Made by a program: the position numbers and the translations under genes. From Corynebacterium kutscheri (GTDB lineage Bacteria; Actinomycetota; Actinomycetes; Mycobacteriales; Mycobacteriaceae): a stretch of DNA of 64,000 bases. The DNA lies in contig NZ_CP011312.1 in the NCBI RefSeq assembly GCF_000980835.1, forward strand, positions 1,364,001 to 1,428,000. Reading direction: 5' to 3'. Of the stretch, positions 38,088-41,134 are shown piece after piece. The notes under the pieces were generated by a model, which searched no databases, had not been told where the DNA came from, and saw only the letters and a program-made list of their open reading frames with translations. Numbering within the stretch: the stretch's first letter is position 1; every line of letters starts with the position of its first letter.

Positions 38088-38747
38088 CTATGAGCAACCA
38101 TCATGACCTTTAAGTAGATCAGCAAAGTTGGTAATAGTTGTTGGCACTGTAGTACCGGAGGTACGTGGTTGTGCCGTATCGGAAAAATCTGGTCCAAAAC
38201 CAGCCACCGAGACTTCAGTACGAACAATATAACTTGCTAATTCGCGTGCAGCACGAGTAATCCGATCTTGTAGTTGATTATTACCACCAAAATCTTCGGT
38301 TGCTGCAAATACTCCAGAAGGCATAATCACAGCACGCAGATAGGTAAAAAGTGGCCGTAGAGCATGATCAAGCACCAATGAATGTCGTGGAGTACCAGCA
38401 GTTGCCGCAATAATCATTGGCATTCCATTAAGAGCATTGGTACCAAGCGAATCTACAAACATCTTAAATAAACCAGAGAAACTGGCACTAAATACCGGAG
38501 TAACCGCAACTAAAGCATCAGCAGCACTAACCGCATCTTGAATTGTGCGTAGTTTTTCACTAGGAATACCGGTAGTCATAAGCTGAGCAAGATCCATGGC
38601 TAGGTCACGGATATTAATAATCTGTGTTTCTAACCCTTCACCACGTTTTGAAACCTGTGCCTCCACGCTGCCAGCAATTCGCTCGGCAAGCATAAGTGTC
38701 GTTGAAGGCACCGATAACCCGACGGCAATAACAACCAAGCGCTTCAT
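38088..38747 (-). CDS. NADPH-dependent FMN reductase, LLM-partnered (CE1759 family)
   Basis: A 219-aa flavodoxin-fold FMN reductase. FMN-binding parts are VVIAVGLSVPSTTLMLAERI, VAVTPVFSASFSGLFKMFVDSL and IIAATAGTPRHSLVLDHALRPLF. The sequence matches my memory of a reductase family named after C. efficiens CE1759, which is always found next to an LLM-type monooxygenase. It likely supplies reduced FMN to its partner; the start overlaps the partner's stop (TAATG). The substrate of the pair is unknown. Confidence 0.85.
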   Translation of the reverse strand: MKRLVVIAVGLSVPSTTLMLAERIAGSVEAQVSKRGEGLETQIINIRDLAMDLAQLMTTGIPSEKLRTIQDAVSAADALVAVTPVFSASFSGLFKMFVDSLGTNALNGMPMIIAATAGTPRHSLVLDHALRPLFTYLRAVIMPSGVFAATEDFGGNNQLQDRITRAARELASYIVRTEVSVAGFGPDFSDTAQPRTSGTTVPTTITNFADLLKGHDGCS

Positions 38748-39877
38748 TAGTCTTCCTTCACAATTTCTTCAGCAGGACGAATCTTATGATGTAACGAATC
38801 CGGTCCAGCGGCTTTCAGACTACCGTGAGTTGGTGGATCGCTTGGTACATGCGCTGGACGACGAGCCTCAAACTCCTTGCGTAAAACTGGAACGATTTCT
38901 TTACCTAAAATTTCGATCTGTTCTAGGACCACTTCCTGCGGCAAACCAGCATGATCAACCAGAAATAGCTGACGCTGGTAGTCACCGACTGCATCTGCGT
39001 AGCTAAGATAACGCTCAATAACTTGTTCCGGGGTACCGACAGTTAATGGAGTCATACGTTCAAACTCTTCTAATGACGGCCCATGTCCATATACCGGCGC
39101 GTTATCGAAATATGGCCTAAAGAAGTCCTTCGCCTTTTTCTCTGTTTCAGCAACAAAAACTTGACCGCCTAAACCGACAATCGCTTGATCTGCGCTGCCA
39201 TGGCCATAGTGCTCAAAGCGTTCACGATAAAGCTGTACCATTTGCTGAGTGTGCTCAATATTCCAGAAGATATGGTTATGGAAGAAACCATCGCCATAAA
39301 AGGCAGCCTGCTCGGCAATTTCTGGTGAACGAATTGATCCATGCCAAACAAACGGAGGAATATCATCAAGTGGACGCGGAGTAGCAGTAAATTGCTGTAG
39401 TGGAGTACGAAACTCTCCTTTCCAATTCACATTCTTCTCACGCCATAAAGTACGTAATAAATGATAATTCTCAATGGCTAACGATAATCCATTACGAATA
39501 TCTGCACCGAACCACGGATATACGGCACCAGTATTACCGCGCCCCATCATAAGATCCAGACGGCCATCTGCTAAGTGCTGTGCATAGGCATAATCTTCGG
39601 CTATCCGCACTGGGTCAGTGGTGGTAATAAGCGTCGTAGCTGTCGAGAACAAGATATTCTCGGTTTGTGCAGCTAAGTGCGCTAATAGGATGGGTGGGTT
39701 TGCCGGAGCAATAAATGGTGGGTTGTGATGCTGACCCGTAGCAAAGACATCTAGTCCAACTTCTTCTGCCTTCTTGGCCAGCTCTACCGTGTTTTTAATA
39801 CGCTCATGTTCACTAAGAACGCGACCGGTCGTAGGGTCTGGGGTAAGGTCACCGATAGTAAATATTCCGAATTGCAT
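38747..39877 (-). CDS. LLM-class flavin-dependent monooxygenase (CE1758 family)
   Basis: A 376-aa luciferase-like monooxygenase with the TIM-barrel pattern: MQFGIFTIGDLTPDP, VELAKKAEEVGLDVFATGQHHNPPF, NILFSTATTLITTTDPVRIAEDYA and ADGRLDLMMGRGNTG. The ending HGSLKAAGPDSLHHKI is typical of the CE1758 type. It is the first gene of a two-gene operon with the FMN reductase, behind a promoter with -35 TTGACA, 17-bp spacer, -10 TATGGT, 6 nt, ATG, and no leader. A 32-bp palindrome overlaps the -35. Substrate unknown; alkane sulfonate or aromatic oxidation are only guesses. Confidence 0.88.
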   Translation of the reverse strand: MQFGIFTIGDLTPDPTTGRVLSEHERIKNTVELAKKAEEVGLDVFATGQHHNPPFIAPANPPILLAHLAAQTENILFSTATTLITTTDPVRIAEDYAYAQHLADGRLDLMMGRGNTGAVYPWFGADIRNGLSLAIENYHLLRTLWREKNVNWKGEFRTPLQQFTATPRPLDDIPPFVWHGSIRSPEIAEQAAFYGDGFFHNHIFWNIEHTQQMVQLYRERFEHYGHGSADQAIVGLGGQVFVAETEKKAKDFFRPYFDNAPVYGHGPSLEEFERMTPLTVGTPEQVIERYLSYADAVGDYQRQLFLVDHAGLPQEVVLEQIEILGKEIVPVLRKEFEARRPAHVPSDPPTHGSLKAAGPDSLHHKIRPAEEIVKED

Positions 39878-39922
39878 GGGTTAACCATAACCTAAAGTTG
39901 TTGACATGTCAACAACTTTAGG
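39878..39922 (-). promoter_or_regulatory. Promoter with 32-bp perfect palindromic operator for the LLM monooxygenase operon
   Basis: The sequence from 39891 to 39922 is a perfect 32-bp palindrome (half-site CCTAAAGTTGTTGACA). Its inner half on the minus strand is the -35 TTGACA (39907-39912). A 17-bp spacer leads to -10 TATGGT (39884-39889), then 6 nt and the ATG at 39877. A repressor bound to the palindrome would cover the -35 and spacer. The end of the palindrome overlaps the stop codon of the upstream gene, so it may also act as its terminator hairpin. Confidence 0.8.
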
Positions 39923-40283
39923 GTGTCCAAGCACACGCAGCACTTATCTCCTGGTCAAGATGCCCTTCCACCGAAGTCCCATACCAGTAACTTCCTTCAC
40001 CAAGAACAGAAATAATCTTTTTAGTTACCTCGGTCAATGCTAGATCGCTACGTGAATGAACAATAACGCGATAAAGTTGTTCCGCTATTGGTGGACGCTG
40101 TTCATACTGTTCAAATTGATTAACCAGCATATTGTCAGGCTCACAGGTCAGATTCACACTATCGCCATAGACTGCAGATACCTCAAGGTCAGATATGCTA
40201 GGGATACTTTCCAAAAATTTTTGCCACTCCTTTTTGGTTAACAACACATTAATGTCTGTCGATACGTCTCGCATTTTTATCAT
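39918..40283 (-). CDS. Hypothetical protein, coupled to trmD
   Basis: I do not recognise this 121-aa protein. It is acidic, cytoplasmic, without membrane helix or signal; the N-terminal KKEWQKFLESIPSISDLEV and the central RVIVHSRSDLALTEVTKKIISVLGEGSYW suggest an alpha/beta fold. The start overlaps the trmD stop by 4 nt (ATGA), so it is probably translated with trmD. A second Met lies at codon 4. Its 3' end touches the palindrome that controls the LLM operon. Confidence 0.7.
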   Translation of the reverse strand: MIKMRDVSTDINVLLTKKEWQKFLESIPSISDLEVSAVYGDSVNLTCEPDNMLVNQFEQYEQRPPIAEQLYRVIVHSRSDLALTEVTKKIISVLGEGSYWYGTSVEGHLDQEISAACAWTP

Positions 40284-41134
40284 TGCACTACCTTTTTATC
40301 TTCTTCACTAAGATCAAGAGCATCCAACAATTCCGGGCGACGCTGTTTTGTACGCAGTAGTGACTGCTCACGACGCCATTTTTCAACCAAGCCATGATTA
40401 CCGCTTGTTAAAACATCAGGCACCAATAACCCCCGCCACTGACGCGGCTTGGTATAACTAGGCCCTTCCAACAGACCATCAGAAAAACTATCTTGTTCAT
40501 GCGAACATTTATTGCCTAATACCCCAGGAATTAATCGCACCACAGCCTCAGCAATGACCAGCACTGCAACTTCGCCACCGATAAGCACATAATCGCCAAT
40601 AGAAACCTCACGAACCCGATACCGATTTTTCGCATCCTCAATAACCCGCTGATCAATACCTTCATATCGTCCGCACGCAAAAACAATATGTTTTTCTCTA
40701 CTCCATGCCTGCGCATCCACTTGACTAAATGGTGTTCCAGCAGGGGTAGGAACAATCAATAAAGGCAGCTCTGCATCTTCTTGTTCCTGAACATCAAGAG
40801 CTACTTCATAACCGGAAAACTCAGCACCATTCAGTTCGTCATGACGCAATTGATTACGATGTTCTTGTGCACTACCTAACTGGTGTGACTGCGCTACTAC
40901 TCCACCACCAGCAGCCACATCATCAAGCGCTGGACCCCATACAGTAGGCTTCATCACCATTCCCGGCCCACCACCAAAAGGAGTATCATCAACAGATTTA
41001 TGCACATCTGTTGCCCATAACCGCAGGTCGTGAACACCGATCGAAAGAATATTTTTCTCAATCGCTTTTCCTAGTAGCGCATAACGCAAAGGATCCAAAT
41101 ACTCAGGAAAAATAGTTACTACATCAATGCGCAT
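40280..41134 (-). CDS. trmD: tRNA (guanine-N1)-methyltransferase
   Basis: SPOUT methyltransferase that makes m1G37 in tRNA and prevents frameshifting. Conserved parts: MRIDVVTIFPEYLDPL, DTPFGGGPGMVMKP, FACGRYEGIDQRV, IGDYVLIGGEVAVLVIAEAVVRLIPGVLGN. At 284 aa it is longer than the ~250-aa E. coli type because of an insertion of about 40 residues between DDVAAGGG and ADAE-type PTPAGTPFSQ (residues ~60-115). Such insertions occur in corynebacteria as I recall. Start follows the rimM stop by 3 bp. Confidence 0.96.
   Translation of the reverse strand: MRIDVVTIFPEYLDPLRYALLGKAIEKNILSIGVHDLRLWATDVHKSVDDTPFGGGPGMVMKPTVWGPALDDVAAGGGVVAQSHQLGSAQEHRNQLRHDELNGAEFSGYEVALDVQEQEDAELPLLIVPTPAGTPFSQVDAQAWSREKHIVFACGRYEGIDQRVIEDAKNRYRVREVSIGDYVLIGGEVAVLVIAEAVVRLIPGVLGNKCSHEQDSFSDGLLEGPSYTKPRQWRGLLVPDVLTSGNHGLVEKWRREQSLLRTKQRRPELLDALDLSEEDKKVVQ

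Follow-up and report, generated by a model that had tools for sequence, protein, structure and literature searches.

A perfect 32-bp palindrome that lies over the promoter of a two-gene flavin enzyme operon in Corynebacterium kutscheri is very probably an operator for RosR, a regulator of the MarR family, which would repress the operon until peroxide relieves that repression and the genes are transcribed as a leaderless mRNA. This is clearly a fresh example of a known switch and not a new kind of element. The palindrome was examined within a stretch of 64,000 nucleotides, referred to here as the window, and the features on which the argument turns are collected in Table 1.

The palindrome and the promoter that it overlies

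Each arm of the palindrome (39891-39906 and 39907-39922) has 16 nt, and the two, joined with no gap, show 100% complementarity, as an earlier sequence-only reading of this DNA had described. That reading also ranked the palindrome as the strongest operator-like site in the window. With a half-length of 16 it is the longest perfect palindrome present, against 7 (14 bp) for the runner-up. Maximum half-lengths of 6-11 were obtained in a Markov-1 simulation of 100 x 64 kb, and at the base composition of the window a palindrome this long is expected by chance 1.5e-5 times per 64 kb and 5.6e-4 times per genome. Neither a second copy of the half-site in the window, with up to 3 mismatches allowed, nor any match to a pattern with a 3-base central spacer was found.

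One half-site makes the -35 hexamer of a promoter on the minus strand, in which TTGACA (39912-39907) is followed by a 17-bp spacer, the -10 hexamer TATGGT (39889-39884), a further 6 nt and the ATG (39877-39875) of the first gene of the operon. Each of these elements had been picked out from the letters, and the pair of hexamers was recovered by the promoter scan with 10 of 12 consensus bases. This match is not significant alone, because shuffled versions of the 401 bases scanned yield promoters of equal quality at a mean of 0.7; the same geometry is, in addition, conserved in relatives, as detailed below. From the spacing we infer that the start of the transcript coincides with the ATG, making the mRNA leaderless.

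Both genes of the operon score above the curated cut-offs of the CE1758/CE1759 pair of families, whose names state no substrate, and a literature search on CE1758 found no relevant paper. The partnership itself is nearly invariant, with the FMN reductase standing behind the monooxygenase in 79 of 80 fetched loci. On the other side of the promoter, the palindrome overlaps the end of the upstream gene, as had been noted, with the TAA at 39918-39920 falling inside it. This 121-aa ORF returned no Pfam or NCBIfam match; ORFs comparable in length (122 and 137 aa) lie upstream of the monooxygenase gene in two other loci (L179 and L181). As for a local regulator, none of the ORFs listed for 34-46 kb is regulator-like, judged by reading with three of them family-searched, which agrees with the earlier view that no regulator gene adjoins the site.

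Table 1 Features of the palindrome region and its flanking genes (positions are those of the window)
Feature	Position	Strand	Basis
FMN reductase, CE1759 family, second gene of the operon	38088..38747	-	TIGR04037, 256 bits (cut-off 176)
FMN-dependent luciferase-like (LLM) monooxygenase, CE1758 family	38747..39877	-	TIGR04036, 666 bits (cut-off 479)
ATG start codon, 6 nt past the -10	39875..39877	-	transcript start predicted here from spacing
-10 hexamer TATGGT, 17-bp spacer	39884..39889	-	promoter scan; relatives
32-bp perfect palindrome	39891..39922	.	arm comparison and simulation
18-bp core TTGTTGACATGTCAACAA, putative RosR operator	39898..39915	.	0 mismatches to the presumed RosR box
-35 hexamer TTGACA, made by one operator half-site	39907..39912	-	promoter scan; geometry kept in relatives
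121-aa ORF, stop codon within the palindrome	39918..40283	-	no family recognised
ORF preceding the 121-aa ORF, putative TrmD	40280-41134		read from sequence alone

A putative RosR box, and an orthologue of RosR elsewhere in the genome

RosR (Cg1324) is an H2O2-sensitive MarR regulator of Corynebacterium glutamicum. Its regulon, complete with a consensus and a list of targets, was reportedly set out by Bussmann, Baumgart and Bott in 2010, and those targets, known by locus number, presumably include cg1848 and others. We take the 18-bp RosR box to be TTGTTGAYRYRTCAACWA, which the core of the palindrome matches in full. Literature searches gave no occurrence of this consensus string, and nothing useful on RosR in connection with a monooxygenase, an FMN reductase or a luciferase-like monooxygenase, or on cg1324 in connection with cg1848. 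Excerpts from published work do supply other points of comparison: a RosR site of C. glutamicum termed rosRb overlaps the rosR start and is tied to autoregulation in an excerpt of PMC7764795, an excerpt of PMC8524982 singles out C92 among the cysteines of RosR, and an excerpt of PMC5401885 describes DNA binding by RosR as weaker after H2O2.

When the 2,354,065-base genome was scanned, the core of the palindrome proved to be the only RosR box with 0 mismatches, and a single further box, at C1:1611165-1611182, carries 1 mismatch; at equal base frequencies, chance would supply 0.002 perfect matches and 0.1 with up to 1 mismatch. The second box is flanked on one side by a MarR gene and on the other by a YceI gene that runs divergently. 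It had been anticipated that another copy of the site might lie near the gene of the regulator, and the only other near-perfect core in the genome does adjoin a MarR-type gene. This MarR gene encodes the RosR orthologue, a protein of 155 aa and the genome's best PF12802 match. It is 57% identical (89 of 155 aligned residues) to its RosR-like counterpart in G212, a genome discussed below, with Cys64 and Cys92 present in both. The other 10 matches of the PF12802 search have far lower global-alignment scores against the same G212 protein. Among solved structures, the best sequence relatives of the orthologue in the PDB are the MarR-type regulators 3zmd and 3zpl (E 1e-26 and 5e-26, aligned over 140 and 137 residues), and none of the 36 PDB chains listed is named RosR. 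The rosR gene lies ~207 kb from the palindrome, and the regulator would therefore act in trans, as had been proposed.

Boxes with 2 mismatches occur at eight places in this genome, and inspection of the ORFs there left only a GST-like gene that fits the RosR pattern; 147 of 218 aligned residues match the gene behind a 1-mismatch box in G212. The convincing boxes in this genome accordingly number three: the palindrome, rosR/YceI and the GST-like gene. The last of these genes (L007, G000:C1:872824-875841, minus strand) is read in two overlapping pieces in different frames, 453-863 and 857-1558, and looks broken. A scan at up to 3 mismatches returned 40 forward and 46 reverse places, little above the 34 and 29 of the reversed control, and was excluded from the evidence. 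In L168, L182, L203 and L007 (at ~1505-1515), the central GATATG of the box provides an apparent gene start codon, so that the operator there would extend into the beginning of the coding sequence.

Conservation of the box and promoter geometry

Across the genus, 21 of 201 genomes contain the exact box, at 22 places in all, and none contains the reversed pattern. RosR-like protein matches occur in 200 of the same 201 genomes, so in most of them the box, if present, must deviate from the exact form. Twenty of the 22 exact boxes adjoin genes of a restricted set: 4 CE1758 monooxygenases, 5 other luciferase-like monooxygenases, 2 FMO-like genes, 1 FMN reductase, 1 pirin, 4 DoxX genes and 3 MarR or MarR/YceI genes. 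The other 2 boxes lie next to a small gene (L177 and L185), for which the one protein searched, that of L185, had no Pfam match. Upstream of rosR-like genes, a box with up to 3 mismatches was present in 22 of 30 fetched cases, the present genome included, against 0.1 in shuffles.

The promoters of CE1758 genes provide the closest view of the arrangement. Merging identical upstream sequences reduced 66 corynebacterial loci to 51 distinct promoters, which represent the best-matching relatives of the query and are a non-random sample; a few starts may be misplaced (L038, L147, L153 and L163, for example), an error that would at most reduce the tally of fitting promoters or shift one between classes. 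A box with up to 2 mismatches is present in 34 of the 51 (shuffles 0) and with up to 4 mismatches in 40 (shuffles 0.55), leaving 11 that have no box at this tolerance. The box stands directly ahead of the start codon in 31 promoters, and in 25 of these the distance from its first base to the ATG is 38 or 39 bp. Twenty-three of the 31 also have a -10-like hexamer ending 5-8 nt before the ATG (shuffles 3.7), and the spacer between it and the -35 within the box measures 16, 17 or 18 bp. A stretch resembling a ribosome site was seen in 3 of the 31 promoters with a proximal box, compared with 5 of the 9 in which the box lies elsewhere. Because the spacing of box, -10 and ATG is conserved, the use of the operator as -35 together with a leaderless-type start is an inherited arrangement; conservation in related species had been named beforehand as a test of the site, and both box and promoter geometry are kept across the genus. 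In three loci (L037, L150 and L152), a YceI-like ORF is divergent from the monooxygenase gene and a RosR box lies in the region that they share, the YceI-like call being based on similarity for L037 and on the start of the sequence only for L150 and L152.

The box extends to CE1758 promoters labelled as other than Corynebacterium, 10 of 47 of which carry it with up to 2 mismatches (shuffles 0): four from Serinicoccus, two from Kocuria, and one each from Nocardia brevicatena, Mobilicoccus, Ornithinimicrobium and a MAG labelled Acidobacteria. A MarR gene precedes the monooxygenase on the same strand in 4 of 80 fetched loci, all of them Kocuria, and in three of the four the ORF that covers it ends ~150-160 bp ahead of the monooxygenase start. 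These Kocuria proteins are 35-42% identical to the RosR of the present genome but nearer, at 41-48%, to the MarR protein of L186, whose gene has an exact box and a YceI gene beside it. The Kocuria loci are thus physical evidence that links a RosR-type regulator with the operon, and no proof of strict RosR orthology. Many Nocardioides CE1758 promoters (L069, L071, L080, L081 and others) show another recurring palindrome-like motif, TGGTACAAACTTCAACCA with variants, ~30-50 bp before the ATG, suggesting a different operator in that group.

Outer arms of the palindrome and alternative explanations

While the 18-bp core is widely shared, the full length of the palindrome is not. Of the 31 promoters with a proximal box, 65-100% show pairing at the positions within 9 bp of the centre; the share drops to 35-68% for positions 10-12 and to 23-45% for positions 13-16. 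A reach of 16 bp per half is seen in this genome only, and one other promoter (L044, the same as L154) reaches 14. Since relatives do not share the pairing past ~12 bp, the full 32 bp need not be due to RosR alone; the extension could reflect a higher affinity for RosR, a hairpin with a part in terminating the upstream transcript, or partly chance. As a potential terminator, the palindrome offers a 14-bp stem with 5 G-C pairs and a CATG loop, and its tail, TTATGGTTAA, passes a loose scan. A hairpin that contributes to ending the upstream transcript is possible but unproven, because a proper U-tract is missing.

One way to accommodate these features is a site with both roles, in which this lineage has lengthened the RosR core to a hairpin of 32 bp that would terminate the upstream transcript as well. 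The seven further perfect pairs outside the core in this genome speak for such a dual function, as does the L044 palindrome, which spans 28 bp and likewise lies just past the end of a same-strand ORF. Set against this, the L044 palindrome also has no proper U-tract behind it, and the flanking AAGT/ACTT recurs in other promoters, where it may simply favour RosR; on balance we regard a dual function as improbable.

It is also conceivable that the site is occupied by a regulator other than RosR, such as a TetR protein or another MarR. Relatives do possess other MarR proteins with similar boxes (L172, L178 and L186), and in L170 (G045) the LLM gene and its RosR box are immediately preceded, on the same strand, by an ORF that reads as TetR-like (904-1467). 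Yet the sole other near-perfect box in the present genome belongs to the neighbourhood of the RosR orthologue, and the 10 other MarR-like matches score far below that protein against the G212 RosR, making such a substitution very unlikely.

A further explanation, that the palindrome is mainly an intrinsic terminator for the upstream ORFs, placed directly where the 121-aa ORF stops, retains a very slim chance. The terminator scan does list it (1 found, shuffles 0.3), the RNA fold of its 14-bp stem has a z-score of -2.5, and the stop codon falls in the arm that is transcribed first; but the stem is poor in G-C pairs and its tail falls short of a proper U-tract, relatives retain the 18-bp box with less outer pairing, and the same box stands ahead of several other gene families. 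Finally, a palindrome arising over the promoter by chance can be dismissed, given the expectation calculated above and a core that is conserved in place across the genus.

Proposed mechanism and meaning

The preferred explanation, control by RosR, would operate as follows. A RosR dimer bound to the central 18 bp would cover the -35 and so block RNA polymerase from the promoter of the CE1758-CE1759 operon. Oxidation of RosR, by analogy at Cys92, would then release it from the operator, allowing transcription from the ATG, or from next to it, to yield a leaderless mRNA, and the flavin enzymes would be produced under oxidative stress. Because RosR is also called an activator of nitrate genes (in an excerpt of PMC5401885), we infer repression at the present promoter from the location of the box over the -35. 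The signal, too, takes on a different character: the sequence-only reading had suggested that the two enzymes may respond to the same unknown substrate, and, given the assignment to RosR, that idea most likely gives way to peroxide or thiol oxidation acting through the regulator.

A bolder extension holds that RosR-type MarR control of CE1758-CE1759 is an ancient core output across Actinobacteria, and that in the present lineage the promoter has incorporated the operator, with a half-site as the -35 of a leaderless transcript, while the site has also grown into a 32-bp hairpin at which the upstream transcript ends. We consider this unlikely in its entirety and offer it tentatively.

In essence, the assignment provides a specific regulator for a monooxygenase/FMN-reductase pair whose substrate is not stated and points to oxidative stress as the likely signal, leaving fewer functions to consider for the pair. 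The regulon of one industrial species can be extended by sequence alone across its genus and beyond, and a clear case is added of an operator half-site that serves as the -35 of a probably leaderless promoter.

Comparison with the RosR regulon of C. glutamicum

Of 242 genus genomes, 3 (G116, G212 and G090) contain an exact copy of the published rosRb site, and G212, at 3.3 Mb in one contig, is probably C. glutamicum, an assignment that draws partly on the rosRb site. TIGR04036 matches were obtained in 10 of 14 control genomes, the named C. glutamicum control among them, with one of the controls above the cut-off. The box scan of G212 at up to 2 mismatches returned 10 forward and 10 reverse places, compared with 2 and 2 for the reversed pattern. 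Seven places have up to 1 mismatch, and they adjoin an FMO-like monooxygenase, an FMN reductase, rosR/YceI, a GST-like gene, the CE1758 orthologue, a second luciferase-like monooxygenase and a pirin, in agreement with what we take to be the RosR target list. The CE1758 orthologue of G212 shows 72% identity, and its 1-mismatch box ends 24 nt ahead of the ATG; a second box, with 2 mismatches, lies 30 bp further upstream, and the promoter also contains a stretch resembling a ribosome site.

The system described here therefore shares much with the RosR regulon of C. glutamicum. Common to both are the same 18-bp box, as far as our presumed consensus goes, and an orthologous MarR protein with Cys64 and Cys92. 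In both, the box lies beside rosR and a YceI gene: cg1322, adjacent to rosR, is described in an excerpt of PMC5401885 as a proposed polyisoprenoid-binding protein gene, and its YceI family is taken from G212. A box also stands before the CE1758 orthologue of G212, and flavin monooxygenases and an FMN reductase are among the targets. The two differ in scale, with three convincing places in the present genome against the seven of G212, and in the design of the promoter: unlike that of G212, the box studied here overlies the -35 in a promoter of leaderless type and has been lengthened to 32 bp.
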